A stretch of DNA of 53,692 nt. Source: Bacteroidia bacterium. GTDB taxonomy: Bacteria > Bacteroidota > Bacteroidia > UKL13-3. The position numbers were made by a program, and so were the translations under genes. Location of the stretch: assembly GCA_025454975.1 (NCBI GenBank), contig JALONK010000018.1, positions 1 through 53,692 of the forward strand, read 5' to 3'. The notes below the pieces were generated by a model. That model had not been told where the DNA came from. It made no database searches and saw nothing but the letters and a program-made list of their open reading frames with translations. Shown piece after piece: positions 37,706-46,919 of this stretch; the stretch's first letter is position 1; every line of letters begins with the position of its first letter.

Positions 37706-38960
37706 AAAAATTGCCCCAGACACCTTAACCATAGAAAAGTTTGCATTTCCTGATTGTGAAAAGCATTTAACACCAAGTGGACATACCATATATGCTGTTA
37801 CCTCAAGCAACGAGGAGGCAATTAAATTAGAGATAGTTCTTAACGCCGGAATCTGTAAACAAAATAAAAACGCTCTTGCTGCTGCTGCTAATTCATTGAT
37901 GAGTGAAGGAACCAAATTAAGATCATCAATTCAGATTGCAGATGAAATGGACTCGTTCGGTGCATATTTCCAAACTAAATGTTTAATAGATGATAGCACA
38001 ATTACCTTATACTGTTTAAAAAAACATTTAAACAGTTGCTTAAGCGTAATATCTGATTTCTTATTAAACCCACAATATCTTGAAAGCGAAAGACTTATAT
38101 ACATAAACAATCAAAAAGAGCGGTTAAAAGTTCAATTAGAAAAAACTGGCTACTTATGTAGAAAAGCGTTTTATAATGCAGTATTTTCGGAAACAAGTCC
38201 AATCGTATCATTCTCTGAATCAATAGATTATGATAATATTTCACGTGAAACGCTTATTCAATTCCACGAAAATCATATACACAAACAAGTGGTGTATATA
38301 GCAATTGCCGGCGATGTTAACCAGGAGGTAATTAATACTGTTTCAAATTTCCTTAATAACTTCAATGTAAGCGAAAGAAAGAACAGTTATCTACAAAACA
38401 AGGCGAAATCCGAGAATGTAGTGATTAGAAAAGATAAGAGTATACAAGCAACACTAAGGGTTGGTGGAAAAATGATCAATAGAAAGCATAATGATTATAG
38501 ACAGCTACAACTTGCAAATCTCGTTCTTGGCGGTTATTTTGGATCGAGACTGATGAAGAATATCAGAGAAGACAAAGGATTAACTTATGGAATATATTCA
38601 ACGCTTGAATCGTATTTGGATGATGCCTGTTTTTATGTAGAAGCTGATGTAAATGCTAAAAAAAAGGAATTGGTCGTTGCTGAAATAACAAATGAACTCA
38701 ATATGCTTTGTTCAACAAACATTCCTGAAGAAGAATTAAATAAAGCAAAAAATTACCTTATCGGATCAATATTAAGAGGAATAGATGGGCCGTTTTCTTT
38801 ATTAGATAGACATCGAATACTTATAGATTATGGATTCGAACAAAATTACTATGATGATTTTATTGAGATAATAAAATCTACAACTCCTGAAGAAATTCGT
38901 TTGTTAACGGCCAAATACTTTAACCCAGACAACCTCGTTACTGTTATATGCGGTGGGTAA
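37692..38960 (+). CDS. M16 family peptidase, non-catalytic partner
   Basis: This 422 aa M16-fold protein (NAGICKQNKNALAAAANSLMSEGT, SFGAYFQTKCLIDD) has no HxxEH at the place of the zinc motif. It is therefore the inactive partner of the preceding gene. The second half carries GGYFGSRLMKNIREDKGLTYGIYS, the substrate-binding R...Y motif. Overlaps on both sides (14 bases upstream, 13 downstream) show a tight operon. The coding sequence contains a near-perfect parS palindrome at 38237-38252. Confidence 0.9.
   Translation: MALDRKIAPDTLTIEKFAFPDCEKHLTPSGHTIYAVTSSNEEAIKLEIVLNAGICKQNKNALAAAANSLMSEGTKLRSSIQIADEMDSFGAYFQTKCLIDDSTITLYCLKKHLNSCLSVISDFLLNPQYLESERLIYINNQKERLKVQLEKTGYLCRKAFYNAVFSETSPIVSFSESIDYDNISRETLIQFHENHIHKQVVYIAIAGDVNQEVINTVSNFLNNFNVSERKNSYLQNKAKSENVVIRKDKSIQATLRVGGKMINRKHNDYRQLQLANLVLGGYFGSRLMKNIREDKGLTYGIYSTLESYLDDACFYVEADVNAKKKELVVAEITNELNMLCSTNIPEEELNKAKNYLIGSILRGIDGPFSLLDRHRILIDYGFEQNYYDDFIEIIKSTTPEEIRLLTAKYFNPDNLVTVICGG
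38237..38252. other. parS-like ParB-binding site 1
   Basis: TATTTCACGTGAAACG matches the widely conserved parS 16-mer TGTTTCACGTGAAACA at 14 of 16 positions, including the 12-base palindromic core. It lies inside the second M16 gene. Confidence 0.75.
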
Positions 38961-40681
38961 TACTGTTTATATCAATTTTAATATGTTTAGAATTACATGC
39001 TCAGCAAAGTTCCATCAGACGGGTATGTCCTCAAGGATTTGATAACACCATATTTTATAACACTACTGGATTAACAGGCTGCGAATTCAAGTATATTTTA
39101 TTGTACGAGAAAAAAGGAGAGTCGGGAATATTTAAAATAATTGACACTATCCGAAGTAAACTAGCAAATCAATACACGCACGTTAACGCAACAGCGCCAC
39201 TATCAGAACCGAATTCTATTTATTTCCTTGAACGCGTAGATTCATGCATTAATACAATTAGTACATTTAGCGATACAATAAAAGTAGATATTGAACCTCC
39301 GCTACCTTCTGAGCTTGACTCTGTAAGTGTAGACTATATCAACAATAGAGTATTATTAGGTTGGCAAAGAAATAAAACTCCTGATTTTGATAAATATCTA
39401 CTTTATGTTTTAGTAAATGGTTTTTTTGTAGCTATGAATCCATCAGAAACAATAGATACTTTTGCTACTGATTTAGGAACAAGGGATCCAAAAACAGGAT
39501 CTTTTACATATACAATAAACACAAGAGATAGCTGCGGAAGGCTTCCGGCTTTTGAAAAAAGACATTCAACAATTTATTTATCGAACAGTGTAGATACTTG
39601 TAAAAAAACTGTGTCGTTAACATGGAGTCATTATATAGGTTGGAATACGATAAAAAGTTATGAGATATTTTGCAGTAGCAATAATGGGCCTTTTGTTTCC
39701 ATAGGAACAACATCCGGAACAACAAATTCTTTTATAAGCAGTATCGTACTTGGAACAAGTTACAGATATTATGTGAGAGCTTTTAAAGATACAACTATAA
39801 TCATTAGTAGCTCATCAAATATTACTGCCGTAAATACAAGATTGAGAAATGAGCCTAATAAGCTTATCATTAGTTCTGTTGGTTCTAACGCACCTGGTGG
39901 GGAAGAATTAACTATTAACGTTTTACCATTTACTAATTCTGAAATTAAAGCATTGCGTTGTGGTTATTTCACAAACGCTTCGGCAAGCAATTATTTTAAT
40001 ATTAATCTTTCCGATGTTGGTAATACTATAAATTTAGGCTTATCAGACCGAATTAAATATAACTTCTTTTTAGAAATAACTGATTTATGTGATCAAACCA
40101 TTGTTAAATCTGACACGTCCACAAACATGGTTTTGACGGGAAAAGAAACGAATGCAATAAAAGCATTGGATTGGAATCCATATTCCACGTGGAACAATGG
40201 TGTAGAAACATACATAACATACAGAGGTACAGGCAATAACAATCTGTTTTCTTTGTTAAACTGGAAAACAACTATAGATACAACTACAACAGATACTGAA
40301 ACGTTAGAAACAGTTGGTAATGAAGGAGAGTGCTATCAAGTTGAAGCAAAAGAGAATAATTCAAACAATACCAGTAAAAGCAATATCTTTTGTTTTGCAT
40401 TACCCGATGGAGTGTACGTCCCTAACGCTTTTTTCCCAAATGGGATTAACAGAATATTTAAACCAAGAGGGACTAATATAGAAGAAGAAAAATCAGAGAT
40501 ACTGATTTGGAGCAGATGGGGTTCATTAGTATTTAGGGGAACTGTTAAAGATGGTTGGAACGGAATTGATATCAATAATGATGTGTGCGCAGACGGTTTA
40601 TATGTTTACCAAATTATTATAATTAACGAAATAACAAATGAAAAATCATTACTTAGGGGAACAGTTACACTACTCAGGTAA
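38948..40681 (+). CDS. secreted protein with fibronectin-like domains and T9SS type B sorting domain
   Basis: This 577 aa protein has a signal peptide (ILICLELHAQQ). Several beta-sandwich modules of the fibronectin III type follow (near residues 110-165, 210-285 and 385-465). The C-terminal gliding-motility-associated domain (about 483-577) shows VYVPNAFFPNG, ILIWSRWGSLVFRG, DGWNG and CADGLYVYQIII. That domain (CHU_C, T9SS type B) directs export through PorV-type T9SS and surface attachment. The gene overlaps the upstream M16 gene by 13 bases and ybeY by 44 bases. It carries parS-like site 2. Confidence 0.88.
   Translation: MRWVILFISILICLELHAQQSSIRRVCPQGFDNTIFYNTTGLTGCEFKYILLYEKKGESGIFKIIDTIRSKLANQYTHVNATAPLSEPNSIYFLERVDSCINTISTFSDTIKVDIEPPLPSELDSVSVDYINNRVLLGWQRNKTPDFDKYLLYVLVNGFFVAMNPSETIDTFATDLGTRDPKTGSFTYTINTRDSCGRLPAFEKRHSTIYLSNSVDTCKKTVSLTWSHYIGWNTIKSYEIFCSSNNGPFVSIGTTSGTTNSFISSIVLGTSYRYYVRAFKDTTIIISSSSNITAVNTRLRNEPNKLIISSVGSNAPGGEELTINVLPFTNSEIKALRCGYFTNASASNYFNINLSDVGNTINLGLSDRIKYNFFLEITDLCDQTIVKSDTSTNMVLTGKETNAIKALDWNPYSTWNNGVETYITYRGTGNNNLFSLLNWKTTIDTTTTDTETLETVGNEGECYQVEAKENNSNNTSKSNIFCFALPDGVYVPNAFFPNGINRIFKPRGTNIEEEKSEILIWSRWGSLVFRGTVKDGWNGIDINNDVCADGLYVYQIIIINEITNEKSLLRGTVTLLR
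40181..40196. other. parS-like ParB-binding site 2
   Basis: TATTCCACGTGGAACA matches TGTTCCACGTGGAACA (parS variant) at 15 of 16 positions, inside the T9SS protein gene. Confidence 0.8.
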
Positions 40682-41099: not shown

Positions 41100-41115
41100 A
41101 ATTTCACGTGAAACA
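41100..41115. other. parS-like ParB-binding site 3
   Basis: AATTTCACGTGAAACA matches parS TGTTTCACGTGAAACA at 14 of 16 positions. It is in the ybeY-mnmG intergenic gap, 31 bases before the mnmG ATG. Confidence 0.75.
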
Positions 41116-41146: not shown

Positions 41147-43012
41147 ATGTTTAAAGAATATGATGTGATTGTTGTTGGTGCCGGACATGCCGGGTGTGAA
41201 GCTGCTGCTGCTGCTGCGAATCTCGGGTCTAAGGTATTACTAATAACTATGGATATGACCAAAATTGCACAAATGAGCTGTAACCCTGCAATGGGTGGCG
41301 TGGCAAAAGGTCAAATTGTTAGAGAGATTGATGCACTTGGTGGATACTCAGGAATTGTAAGCGACAAGAGTACAATTCAGTTTCGTATGTTAAACTTGAG
41401 TAAAGGTCCTGCGATGTGGAGCCCAAGGGCACAGAACGACAGAACACTTTTCAGTATTTATTGGAGAGAAATATTAGAACAAACACCCAATATTGATTTT
41501 TGGCAGGATATGGTAAGAGAAATCATTGTTGACCATAATCAAGTTAAAGGGGTTGTAACAGGAATGGGGCAAAGGATTTATGCTAAGTCGGTAGTTTTAA
41601 CGAATGGAACATTTTTGAATGGAATAATTCATATTGGTACGAAGCAATTTGGCGGTGGTAGGATAGGAGAAAAAGCTTCTTCTGGTATTACAGAACAATT
41701 AATATCTCTAGGATTTGAAAGTGGACGGATGAAAACAGGAACCCCACCAAGGGTTGATGGTAGGACACTCGATTATACAAAAATGGAAAGGCAAGATGGA
41801 GATATTAATCCATCAAAATTTTCATACCTATCCGACATACAACCTGTAAAGAACCAAATACCATGTTATATCACATACACTAATGAAAGTGTACACGAAA
41901 TCTTAAGAACCGGATTCGATGAATCACCAATGTATGCAGGACGAATTCAAGGTTTAGGACCAAGATATTGCCCAAGTATTGAAGATAAGATTAACAGATT
42001 TGCAGAGCGAGAAAGACATCAAATTTTTGTTGAACCGGAAGGGTGGAATACAGTAGAAATTTATGTTAACGGGTTCTCAACCTCACTTCCTGATCATATA
42101 CAATTTGAAGCAATCAAAAGAATTCCAGGTTTTGAAAATGTTAAACTATTTAGGCCGGGATATGCTATTGAGTATGATTATTTTCCACCAACACAACTTA
42201 AACTAACCTTAGAAACTCATGGCATTAACAACCTTTACTTTGCTGGCCAGATAAATGGAACAACAGGGTATGAAGAAGCTGCGTGCCAAGGATTAATTGC
42301 AGGAATAAATGCGCATTTAAAAATATTTGGTAAAGACCCCTTCATTCTAAAAAGAAGTGAGGCTTACATTGGGGTTTTGATTGATGATTTAGTAAATAAA
42401 GGTACAGATGAACCTTACAGAATGTTTACTTCTAGAGCTGAGTATAGGATTTTATTAAGACAAGATAATGCAGATATAAGGTTAACAGAAAAAGGATATG
42501 ATATTGGTTTAGCGAAGAGTGAAAGAATGGATATGGTTAATAAAAAGATAAAATATACGGATGAAATTATTGAATACTTCAAGAAAACATCAGTTAAGCC
42601 AAACGAAGTAAATCCTATGCTTGAACATTTAAAAACAACGCCAATATTACAAAACTATAAATTAGATCAAATTCTTGGACGACCACAAGTTTCACTAGAT
42701 AATTTAAAAGAATGGATTCCATCAGTAAATGAATTCACATCAAATTTTGATAATGAGTCAATGCTACAGGCTGAAGTATTAATTAAATATGAAGGTTATT
42801 TGGAAAAAGAAAAACAAATGGTTGACAAAATGAACAGACTGGAAGATGTGAGAATTGCAGAAGGTTTTGATTTTGGTTTAGTTCAATCTATCTCGAAAGA
42901 AGCAAGAGAAAAACTAACAAAACAAAGGCCCAAAACATTAGGACAGGCTTCAAGAATCAGCGGAATTTCTCCGGCAGATATTAGTGTATTATTAATTCAT
43001 TTGGGAAGGTAA
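41147..43012 (+). CDS. mnmG: tRNA uridine-5-carboxymethylaminomethyl enzyme MnmG (GidA)
   Basis: MnmG with MnmE installs the cmnm5 group at U34 of several tRNAs, using FAD and methylene-THF. The 621 aa length is normal. Motifs are the FAD loop VVGAGHAGCEAAAAAA, then CNPAMGGVAKGQIVREIDALGG, the GTFLNGIIHIG segment, and the PTQLKLTLETHGINNLYFAGQINGTTGYEEAA block. The C-terminal helical domain ends GISPADISVLLIHLG. In many bacteria this gene (gidA) sits next to oriC, which agrees with the parS-like sites around it. Confidence 0.97.
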   Translation: MFKEYDVIVVGAGHAGCEAAAAAANLGSKVLLITMDMTKIAQMSCNPAMGGVAKGQIVREIDALGGYSGIVSDKSTIQFRMLNLSKGPAMWSPRAQNDRTLFSIYWREILEQTPNIDFWQDMVREIIVDHNQVKGVVTGMGQRIYAKSVVLTNGTFLNGIIHIGTKQFGGGRIGEKASSGITEQLISLGFESGRMKTGTPPRVDGRTLDYTKMERQDGDINPSKFSYLSDIQPVKNQIPCYITYTNESVHEILRTGFDESPMYAGRIQGLGPRYCPSIEDKINRFAERERHQIFVEPEGWNTVEIYVNGFSTSLPDHIQFEAIKRIPGFENVKLFRPGYAIEYDYFPPTQLKLTLETHGINNLYFAGQINGTTGYEEAACQGLIAGINAHLKIFGKDPFILKRSEAYIGVLIDDLVNKGTDEPYRMFTSRAEYRILLRQDNADIRLTEKGYDIGLAKSERMDMVNKKIKYTDEIIEYFKKTSVKPNEVNPMLEHLKTTPILQNYKLDQILGRPQVSLDNLKEWIPSVNEFTSNFDNESMLQAEVLIKYEGYLEKEKQMVDKMNRLEDVRIAEGFDFGLVQSISKEAREKLTKQRPKTLGQASRISGISPADISVLLIHLGR

Positions 43013-43048: not shown

Positions 43049-43939
43049 ATGGAGAAAATTAATGTGTGTCCGGTATGTGGTGGCGACAATATTTCAACTG
43101 TGTTGTCTTGTAAAGATTATGTTGCAAGTGGTGAAATATTTTGTTTAACAAGGTGTAATCACTGTACTTTTTTGTTTACCAATCCTAGACCTACTGCTAA
43201 TGAAATCGGGAGATATTATCAAAGCGATAAATATGTTTCGCATGCAGGTAATAAAGATGAATTTAGCTTCATGTATAAAATTTACGATTGGGTTAGAGAC
43301 TATAGTATCAATAAAAAAATAGATCATATTAAAACATACCATACTAAAGGTAAACTTATGGACCTTGGTTGTGGATTGGGATACTTTTTAGATGGTGTAA
43401 TAAAAGATGGTGTATTTGAGGCAATTGGTGTTGATGTAAGTGATGAAGCCGTTACTTATGTTAAAAATAAATTTGGTTATCAAGTATATAATGAAAATGA
43501 ACTTGATATGTTTACTCATCATTCGTTTGATGTGATAACACAGTGGCATGTACTGGAACATGTACATTTGTTGAACAACCGAATGGAACAACTTAAAAAT
43601 TTATTGAGTAAAACTGGAACAATGTTCATTGCAGTGCCTAATAGTAATAGTTGGGATGCAAATTATTACAAAGAATTTTGGGATGGGTATGATGTGCCCA
43701 GACACCTCTATCATTTTAATCAAAAAAGTTTTACTCATTTGATAAGTAAACATGGGTTTAAAATTGTAGAAACTAAAAACATGCCGTTCGATGCTCCTTA
43801 TATTAGCATGAGAAGCGAGGTACATAAAGGAAATAGTTTTGAAATGATTAGAGGTGCAATTTCCGGATTACGCTCAACGGTTGCCGCCCAAAGAAATAAT
43901 GATCATAGTAGTTTATTATTCGTTGTTCAGCATGCGTAG
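43049..43939 (+). CDS. class I SAM methyltransferase with N-terminal zinc ribbon
   Basis: The N-terminal part of this 296 aa protein has Cys pairs CPVCGG (Cys7, Cys10) and CNHC, forming a zinc ribbon. The methyltransferase domain has motif I LMDLGCGLGYFLDG, an acidic loop IGVDVSDEA, and VITQWHVLEHV. The arrangement resembles enzymes acting on nucleotide-linked sugars or polysaccharides, but the substrate is unknown. The ATG is 4 bases after a promoter-like TTTCTTTG (43037-43044). Its last 8 bases overlap the Ig-like lipoprotein gene. Confidence 0.88.
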   Translation: MEKINVCPVCGGDNISTVLSCKDYVASGEIFCLTRCNHCTFLFTNPRPTANEIGRYYQSDKYVSHAGNKDEFSFMYKIYDWVRDYSINKKIDHIKTYHTKGKLMDLGCGLGYFLDGVIKDGVFEAIGVDVSDEAVTYVKNKFGYQVYNENELDMFTHHSFDVITQWHVLEHVHLLNNRMEQLKNLLSKTGTMFIAVPNSNSWDANYYKEFWDGYDVPRHLYHFNQKSFTHLISKHGFKIVETKNMPFDAPYISMRSEVHKGNSFEMIRGAISGLRSTVAAQRNNDHSSLLFVVQHA

Positions 43940-45518
43940 ATTTCAGAAATTAAGTTCATATCTATTTTTATTTCTGATTTCCGGTTGCGCACAAATTGTA
44001 AGTCCAACAGGTGGAAACAAGGACGATAAATCACCAATGGTGATAGCTATGAAACCAGAGAACAAAACTGTTTCATTTAATGAAAAAAAAATAACAATTT
44101 CTTTTGATGAGTTTATACAATTAAACTCTCCTTCAGAACAAATAATCATATCGCCACCTATGGAGAATAAGCCAACCTTTAATTCGAAAGGTAAGGTTTT
44201 AGAAATAAGACTTGATGGTAATTTACTTCCCAATACAACTTATACATTAAACTTCGGTAACGCAATTGGTGATAACAAAGAAAATAATATAGTTAGTAAC
44301 TTGGTTTATGTATTTAGTACCGGACAACAACTTGACTCATTAACTATTAATGGAAAAGTTGTAGATGCTTTCAACAATAAGCCACTTAAAGATGTAGTTG
44401 TCGGATTATATTTAGATGAAACCTTTAACGACTCAACGATTATAAAGGAGAAGCCTATTTACTTTTCTAAAACTGATAATGAAGGTGAATTTAGTATTTT
44501 AAACTTACCCTCAAAGTTATTTAGATTTTTTGCCATAAAAGATGACAATAAGAACCTAAAATGGGATAAAAACGAATCAATAGCATTTTTTCAACAGCCT
44601 ACTAAACCAGGTGATTCAAATACTAATAATTTATTACCAAAAATATTCAAGCCGAATTTATATGCTAGTGGTAAAATTATAGATACCTTCAGTAATCAAC
44701 CTCAAAAGTTTACCTTTATTATTTATAAATCTGATACCGTATTAATCCAATCAAACCAAAACAATGAAATTTGGTACCGGAAGGTAAAAGGTAATGAAGA
44801 TATTGATACCTTTTTTGCATACACCAAAACACCGGAGAATAAAGATGTTAATTTCAATGTAAACATTAATGGTACTGCCCGAAACATAATACTCCAACAA
44901 AAAAATACCTTTAAAGCTGATAAACTCAACATTAGTATAGACAAGAATATTGAACTAAATGATAGTATAAAAATTGTATCAAATAATCCGATTACAAACA
45001 TAGATCAAGAAAAAATTATATTGCTAAAAGATAGTATAGCACATCCATATAGTTTAATCAAAACAGATGCATTTAACTATTATATAAAATTTAGATACAA
45101 AGAAAAGGAAAGCTTTAAACTTGAATTAAGGGATAGTGTTTTTAAAGATATATATGGCAATTACAGTAAAAAGGAAAAAAACACCTACAATATAAAAGCA
45201 AGTAAAGATTATGCCTCTCTTTTATTACATGTAAAATTACTCAACAAACTTCCGTATCCGGTGATATTACAAATAATGAGTAGTGATGAAAAAGAGATTT
45301 TTTATACCTATAAAGTTAATAATTCAATTGATTTAGAAATTCCATTTATGTTGCCAGGTTCTTATAAAATAAAATATATTCATGATGAGAATAAAAATGG
45401 GAAATGGGATAATGGCGATTTAACTAAGTTACAGCAGCCTGAAAAAGTTGACTATTTTAGTGAAACACTTAATGTAAAGGCTTATTGGGACTTGGAACAG
45501 AGTATTTTAGTTAAGTAA
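43932..45518 (+). CDS. lipoprotein with Ig-like domains
   Basis: I choose the ATG at 43932, which gives 528 aa beginning MRRFQKLSSYLFLFLISGCAQ. This has a good lipobox (ISGC); the open frame upstream lacks any such signal. The first domain (about residues 35-120) reads like a bacterial SbsA-type Ig-like domain (SFDEFIQL, LPNTTYTLNFGNAI). Repeated beta modules follow (GKVVDAFNNKPLKDVVVGLYLD). It ends ADY-like with an EF-type loop DENKNGKWDNGD. It is probably exposed on the inner or outer face of the outer membrane. The next 387 bases contain no gene. Confidence 0.8.
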   Translation: MRRFQKLSSYLFLFLISGCAQIVSPTGGNKDDKSPMVIAMKPENKTVSFNEKKITISFDEFIQLNSPSEQIIISPPMENKPTFNSKGKVLEIRLDGNLLPNTTYTLNFGNAIGDNKENNIVSNLVYVFSTGQQLDSLTINGKVVDAFNNKPLKDVVVGLYLDETFNDSTIIKEKPIYFSKTDNEGEFSILNLPSKLFRFFAIKDDNKNLKWDKNESIAFFQQPTKPGDSNTNNLLPKIFKPNLYASGKIIDTFSNQPQKFTFIIYKSDTVLIQSNQNNEIWYRKVKGNEDIDTFFAYTKTPENKDVNFNVNINGTARNIILQQKNTFKADKLNISIDKNIELNDSIKIVSNNPITNIDQEKIILLKDSIAHPYSLIKTDAFNYYIKFRYKEKESFKLELRDSVFKDIYGNYSKKEKNTYNIKASKDYASLLLHVKLLNKLPYPVILQIMSSDEKEIFYTYKVNNSIDLEIPFMLPGSYKIKYIHDENKNGKWDNGDLTKLQQPEKVDYFSETLNVKAYWDLEQSILVK

Positions 45519-45905
45519 TAAACATCAATTGTGGATTGCGACATTTTAACTCATGGATAAACGTTGAAAACTATTTTAATAACAATATCAATTGATTAAA
45601 TGCGACATTGTGTACATTATATCTACATGTTTAACACATTAATTTCATTTAAATTTTATACCAATTTATATGTGATTTAGGTTATCAACGATGTGAATAA
45701 AACATAAATATAAGCAAATTATCAGTAAGTTAGGATGTGAATTAGATGTGAATCAAATAAGAATAACCACAAAAACGAAAAAAATAAAATAAGTTTTACG
45801 CATAATTAACACCATAATAATAAATACAACTTTTATAAATTAATTTAATTGAATTAATAGGTTGTGAATGCGACATCTAAAAAATTAATTAGTTTTGGCA
45901 TTGCT
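45519..45905. other. candidate chromosomal replication origin (oriC)
   Basis: This is the only long gene-free stretch in the window and is strongly AT-rich. DnaA-box-like sequences are present: TGTGAATAA at 45692-45700 (perfect reverse match to TTATNCACA), TGTGAATTA at 45736 and TGTGAATCA at 45747 (one mismatch each). Starts at 45692, 45736 and 45747 are 44 and 11 bases apart, a helical phasing. Looser versions are at 45530 (TGTGGATTG) and 45863 (TGTGAATGC). TTATCAACG at 45682 faces the first box. The word TGCGACAT occurs three times (45537, 45601, 45869). An open GTG frame at 45864 would extend PheS by 14 residues into this region, but I do not believe it. Confidence 0.5.
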
Positions 45906-46919
45906 ATGATTGAGAAATTAAAACAGATTCAAGACGAAATAGAAAGAAAAATTCTGGAAAAGGCAGAAGATGCTGAACAGTTTAGGTTAACTTATTTAAG
46001 TCGTAAAGGAAAATTAAATGATTTATTTGAAGAGTTTAAAGCTATTCCTAATGATTTAAAGAAGGAAACAGGAAAACTTATGAATCAGGTTAAACAATTA
46101 GCCCAGGATAAGTTTAACGCAGCAAAAGAAAAGTTCGAGGATACTTCAACAATCACAAGCAATAAATATGACTTAAGCTTACCGGCATATCCTTTTATTG
46201 CGGGAGCTCGACATCCATTATTATTGGTAGAAAAGAAAATTGTAGAAATATTCAATAAACTTGGATTTAGCTTAGCTTATGGACCGGAAATAGAGGATGA
46301 TTGGCATAATTTTTCAGGATTAAATTTTCCGGATAATCATCCTGCAAGAGACATGCAAGACACGTTTTTTATTGAAAAAGATATTGCATTGCGCACACAT
46401 ACTTCATCTGTTCAAGTAAGATTAATGGAGAATAAAAAACCACCTATTCGTGCAATAATGCCGGGTAGGGTTTATCGTAATGAAGCCATTTCTGCCAGAG
46501 CACATTGCTTTTTCCACCAAATTGAAGGAATTTATATTGATAAAAAAGTTTCATTTGCTGATCTTAAACAAACACTTTATTATTTCGTGCAAGAAATGTT
46601 TGGGAATGACTTTAAAATAAGATTTAGGCCAAGTTATTTTCCATTTACCGAACCAAGTGCTGAAATGGATATCTCATGTATCATTTGCAAAGGGAAAGGT
46701 TGTAATGTATGTAAGCATAGCGGTTGGGTTGAAATTTTAGGTTGTGGTATGATAGATCCTAATGTATTACAGGATAACGGAATTAATCCTGAGGAATACT
46801 CAGGTTTTGCTTTTGGAATGGGCATTGAGAGAATAACAATGCTAAAATATGATGTTAAAGATTTACGAATGTTTTCAATAAACGATGTAAGATTTCTTCA
46901 ACAATTTGAATCTGAATAA
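45906..46919 (+). CDS. pheS: phenylalanyl-tRNA synthetase alpha subunit
   Basis: From the ATG at 45906 the protein is 337 aa and begins MIEKLKQIQDEIERKI, as in other PheS. It charges tRNA(Phe) as an alpha2-beta2 enzyme with PheT, which is not in the window. Motif 2 is RAIMPGRVYRNEAISARAH and motif 3 is FAFGMGIERITMLKY. A Cys-rich insertion CIICKGKGCNVCKHSGW forms a probable zinc knuckle typical of part of the family. Confidence 0.96.
   Translation: MIEKLKQIQDEIERKILEKAEDAEQFRLTYLSRKGKLNDLFEEFKAIPNDLKKETGKLMNQVKQLAQDKFNAAKEKFEDTSTITSNKYDLSLPAYPFIAGARHPLLLVEKKIVEIFNKLGFSLAYGPEIEDDWHNFSGLNFPDNHPARDMQDTFFIEKDIALRTHTSSVQVRLMENKKPPIRAIMPGRVYRNEAISARAHCFFHQIEGIYIDKKVSFADLKQTLYYFVQEMFGNDFKIRFRPSYFPFTEPSAEMDISCIICKGKGCNVCKHSGWVEILGCGMIDPNVLQDNGINPEEYSGFAFGMGIERITMLKYDVKDLRMFSINDVRFLQQFESE

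Follow-up and report, generated by a model that had tools for sequence, protein, structure and literature searches.

The window, by which we mean the whole stretch of DNA analysed (53,692 nucleotides, 53.7 kb), contains a 387-base gap at 45519-45905 that separates a Big_5-domain gene from pheS. The genome belongs to a family of uncultured Bacteroidota, whose relatives carry public labels such as Sphingobacteriales bacterium 49624_E34 and Bacteroidetes bacterium RE-27jun17-99. The gap and its surroundings comprise the following features.

38237-38252, + strand: parS-like site TATTTCACGTGAAACG
40181-40196, + strand: parS-like site TATTCCACGTGGAACA
41100-41115, + strand: parS-like site AATTTCACGTGAAACA
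41147-43012, + strand: mnmG (gidA), an origin-linked gene flanked by parS (PF01134, E 3.8e-163)
43854-45518, + strand: upstream neighbour, a Big_5/DUF2141-domain protein (Pfam domain match)
45519-45905, no strand assigned: AT-rich gap, candidate oriC (GC 0.23), between the Big_5-domain gene and pheS
45906-46919, + strand: pheS, phenylalanyl-tRNA synthetase alpha chain, starting from ATG (PF01409, E 1.4e-95)

A preliminary description of this DNA had called the gap extremely AT-rich and the longest gene-free stretch, and had placed it 2.5 kb from mnmG and 4.4 kb from the nearest parS-like site. These statements hold. The lowest-GC 380-bp windows of the 53.7 kb fall in the gap, mnmG (identified by Pfam) ends at 43012, and the nearest parS-like site is the one at 41100-41115. 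A seemingly longer gap at 718-1581 (864 bp) was rejected as a competitor, as it lies inside a gene at 3-1982 on the - strand that is open at the contig edge.

Within the gap, three DnaA-box-like repeats had been pointed out, TGTGAATAA at 45692, TGTGAATTA at 45736 and TGTGAATCA at 45747, with looser copies toward both ends. We found all three, spaced by 44 and 11 bases, and the outer copies proved to be TGTGGATTG at 45530 and TGTGAATGC at 45863. In total, TGTGRAT occurs at five sites, all on the + strand (TGTGGAT at 45530, TGTGAAT at the others). When the gap was shuffled 20,000 times (first-order), no shuffle contained four same-strand TGTGAAT words, and 3 contained three. With one mismatch to the E. 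coli consensus TTATNCACA allowed, the gap has 3 sites where 1.3 are expected (p 0.17), which is not significant alone. The evidence for the boxes rests on the precise repeats and on their conservation. A second repeat, TGCGACAT, which was absent from the preliminary description, occurs three times in the 53.7 kb, at 45537, 45601 and 45869, always within the gap; two copies of it arose in 1 of 20,000 shuffles. The elements of the gap are listed below.

45530-45538, + strand: DnaA-box-like TGTGGATTG (reverse of CAATCCACA), with TGTGNAT at this place in 8 of 8 genus members
45537-45544, + strand: TGCGACAT copy 1, a word found only in the gap within the window
45563-45576, + strand: GTTGAAAACTATTT (GTTGATAACTATTT in most of the genus), between the conserved TGCGACAT copies, alignment columns 48-61
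45601-45608, + strand: TGCGACAT copy 2, conserved in the genus
45682-45700, no strand assigned: inverted DnaA-box pair TTATCAACG-A-TGTGAATAA
45736-45755, + strand: two TGTGAATNA boxes 11 bp apart (one helical turn)
45803-45822, + strand: degenerate BUS-like unit, with box TAATTAACA, spacer CC and trios ATA-ATA-ATA (p 0.115 for this copy)
45863-45869, + strand: DnaA-box-like TGTGAAT, with GTGAAT invariant in 8 of 8 genus members
45869-45876, + strand: TGCGACAT copy 3, not conserved in the genus

As a check, it had been proposed to ask whether relatives keep these repeats in front of pheS; they do so both within the genus and across the family. When eight species of the genus are aligned, this non-coding DNA spans 405 columns with a mean column identity of 81%. 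The left-end TGTGNAT, the TGCGACAT pair, GTTGATAACTATTT and the inverted box pair are kept, as are the 11-bp-spaced box-like sites, a box with trinucleotides and the TGTGAAT close to pheS. In congeners, the inverted pair reads CTATCCACA with TGTTAATAA or TGTGTATAA, and the 11-bp-spaced positions are retained as TGTTA-type variants. The variant cores in the conserved cluster are TGTGAAT, TGTGGAT, TGTTGAT and TGTTAAT. Across the family, 39 pheS regions representing nine genera were compared, and their upstream gap usually measures 390-480 bp (three shorter automatic lengths are due to chance antisense frames, and two regions end at contig ends). Its GC is mostly 0.18-0.28, so that an AT-rich candidate unwinding region is found in most of the family as well as here. 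The top enriched 7-mers of these gaps are DnaA-box variants and TGTCGCA. Weighted by genus, TGTGAAT scores 6.6 of nine genera (0.86 expected), TGTTGAT 5.5 of nine (1.0 expected) and TGTCGCA 4.6 of nine (0.07 expected). The enriched words in nine genera and the shuffles thus both place the cluster of DnaA boxes above chance.

The published basal unwinding system (BUS) combines a DnaA box with a short spacer and DnaA-trios, perfect trios being 5'-CTA-3' on the upper strand (PMC8287927, PMC8235120). In several genera of the family, a box followed by a short spacer and CTA/TTA trinucleotides recurs about 100-150 bp upstream of pheS. At positions comparable to that in the window, the g5 unit reads CAATTAACA-G-CTA-TTA-TTA-TTA-TTA, and the g2 unit reads ATATTAACA-TCT-CTATTACTATTA, i.e., trios CTA-TTA-CTA-TTA (p below 0.01 for either); several g2 and g5 members have their units 124-150 bp before pheS. 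The unit is moderate in some members of g1, g6 and g9 and weak in this genome. About a dozen of the 39 family sequences have no qualifying unit under the scoring rules used, and some further sequences have their best-scoring match elsewhere in the gap. The order of elements, which is clear in several relatives, is the same as in the B. subtilis BUS (boxes 6/7, spacer, DnaA-trios; PMC6669920, PMC8235120). In contrast to B. subtilis, the unit of the window is degenerate (TAATTAACA-CC-ATA x3), and the candidate origin does not adjoin dnaA.

A parS cluster lies near pheS in all 18 family genomes searched, every site of the perfect pattern TTYCACGTGRAAY being located about 4-9 kb from pheS. This includes G028, the sole single-contig genome of the comparison, in which nearly all other genomes are fragmented assemblies. 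Since in most of the other families parS flanks mnmG as well, it marks the mnmG neighbourhood and not the exact gap. Among the families examined, pheS lies beside this mnmG/parS neighbourhood only in the present one.

Uncorrected GC skew was dominated by gene direction in the window and was discarded as an origin marker. The skew analysis was therefore confined to fourfold-degenerate and non-coding sites, and the gene strands were treated separately. The window's own switch was fitted at 37-41 kb from too few informative sites. For the relatives, the stretches were centred on pheS, which somewhat favours central switch points; a negative-to-positive switch whose 4-log-unit interval covers the gap was obtained in five of the eight (G058, G034, G065, G075 and G066). 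In six pooled genomes, picked after the single results had been seen, skew lies between about -0.03 and -0.10 on the left side of the gap and between +0.03 and +0.13 on the right; pooling all eight likewise gives a sign change at the gap. The skew check suggested in the preliminary description thus favoured the gap in five relatives, but the switch of G024 lies 26-39 kb away, G027 gave no origin-type switch, and the best local switch of G028 lies ~240 kb from pheS (skew interval ~81-97 kb). A rearrangement in G028 is a possible reason for its displaced switch.

The displacements in G024 and G028, together with the linkage of parS to mnmG and not to pheS across other families, could mean that the true origin lies elsewhere within tens of kb, for example, by mnmG. 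The gap would then be a site that titrates or regulates DnaA (datA- or DARS-like) or a DnaA-controlled promoter. We regard this as improbable, because five relatives put the skew switch at the gap itself, which also surpasses every other gene-free stretch of the window in length and AT content. Furthermore, unwinding sites, not titration sites, are where a BUS layout would be expected (PMC8287927).

Taken together, we predict from sequence comparison, with high confidence, that the gap at 45519-45905 is the chromosomal replication origin (oriC). The earlier suggestion of an origin candidate that is not only a promoter of pheS is thereby supported by conservation, by the proximity of parS and by the skew switch in most relatives. 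The whole family very probably keeps its predicted origin before pheS, a few kb from the segregation sites and far from dnaA. At such an origin, DnaA would bind the boxes of the gap, and from the box beside the trinucleotides a DnaA filament would be loaded onto one strand. Opening would follow in the AT-rich DNA around 45803-45822 and to the right of it, beside pheS, after which the helicase would be loaded and two forks would depart bidirectionally. ParB on the parS sites 4-7 kb away would then segregate the new origins.

As pheS lies directly downstream, its promoter must also sit within the gap. One may go further and read the gap as serving pheS regulation alone, either through a promoter to which transcription factors bind or through a long 5' leader, with TGTGRAT and TGCGACAT as operators. 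Consistent with this, a module of TGCGACAT and GATAACTAT is also found before a carB-like gene in G058, as would be expected of a regulon motif. However, in the other families examined, pheS is driven from gaps of mostly 35-220 bp, in nearly all of which the motifs are absent; no comparable gap follows the Big_5 gene there, which has different neighbours. A promoter accounts neither for the skew switch, nor for DnaA-box variants as the top words, nor for the box-trio unit. With regard to a leader or riboswitch, the gap matched none of the Rfam families at E up to 1, and its RNA fold z-score of 0.10 indicates that its stability is not unusual. A solely regulatory role is therefore quite unlikely, and an origin that also houses the pheS promoter remains our preferred reading.

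The second repeat deserves separate consideration. Copies 1 and 2 of TGCGACAT occur with a 64-bp spacing in this genome and in six congeneric relatives. Elsewhere in the stretches sampled from eight relatives, the 8-mer is sparse, although a few non-coding copies occur. In G058, a roughly 750-bp gap before the carB-like gene (named by eye; L241:18676-19110, contig C137 about 1,238,676-1,239,110) holds four TGCGACA/TGTCGCA sites around TTGATAACTAT and resembles the module of the pheS gap, from which gene it lies ~119 kb away. Given this second location, the module may serve transcription-factor binding, origin regulation or both. We tentatively raise the possibility, which we hold to be doubtful, that TGCGACAT-GATAACTAT(TT)-TGCGACAT is a second, non-DnaA control module of the family's origins, through which a putative family-specific protein couples initiation to a signal. 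If the module does regulate initiation, it would indicate a new origin-binding factor. Besides, two TGTCGCA sites ~190 bp apart, without the GATAACTAT core, were observed in G034 before an isoaspartyl-peptidase/asparaginase-like gene (named by eye; L243:10450-10660).

Few studies address origins in Bacteroidota, and a location at dnaA is often taken for granted. In this genome, dnaA is on another contig (one PF00308 match, E 1.1e-63) and encodes a canonical DnaA of 478 aa, with the box-binding signature GGRDHSTVIHA near the protein end (read by eye). The preliminary description had held that a better box cluster next to dnaA would speak against the gap. Three perfect TTATNCACA boxes do lie within about 160 bp upstream of dnaA here, but 15 relatives have only 0-2 perfect boxes at that place. 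These boxes fit dnaA autoregulation. An origin at this textbook location is hardly credible, as the dnaA of G028 (at 985 kb, far from pheS and parS) has positive skew on either side, i.e., it lies within a single skew arm with no switch, and has no perfect parS nearby.

The oriC of E. coli likewise lies near mnmG and not beside dnaA. It shares AT-rich DNA and closely spaced DnaA boxes with the candidate, whereas the neighbour of the candidate is pheS. In Flavobacteriaceae, the origins of Mariniflexile litorale and Algorimicrobium bowmanii have been predicted near mnmG by Ori-Finder 2022, with GC-skew support, and that of Mariniflexile explicitly not at dnaA (PMC11278836, PMC12843772). The candidate described here differs from these in its place directly before pheS, about 2.5 kb from mnmG, and in carrying the TGCGACAT motifs. 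Thus, mnmG-side, non-dnaA origins of Bacteroidota have already been reported by prediction, and what is new here is the family-specific place before pheS. Our literature search returned no paper that combines replication origin, pheS, DnaA boxes and oriC. A conserved candidate origin on the pheS side would provide a reference for growth estimates from read depth and for orienting assemblies in this uncultured family.

Two further sites were observed in other genomes. Eight DnaA-box-like sites precede an nrdJ-like gene in G028 (L208:8930-9520, about 148,930-149,520). The gene, named by eye, resembles a B12-dependent ribonucleotide reductase, and its control by DnaA is possible. This 149-kb cluster was weighed as the origin of that genome, the skew interval of which lies at about 81-97 kb. 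In another family (f20), G053 has an AT-rich gap (L306:1-400; GC about 0.23) that precedes a nadA-like gene located upstream of mnmG. This gap holds TTATCAACA-type box pairs near parS and is a candidate origin of that family, which suggests a different exact origin position there.
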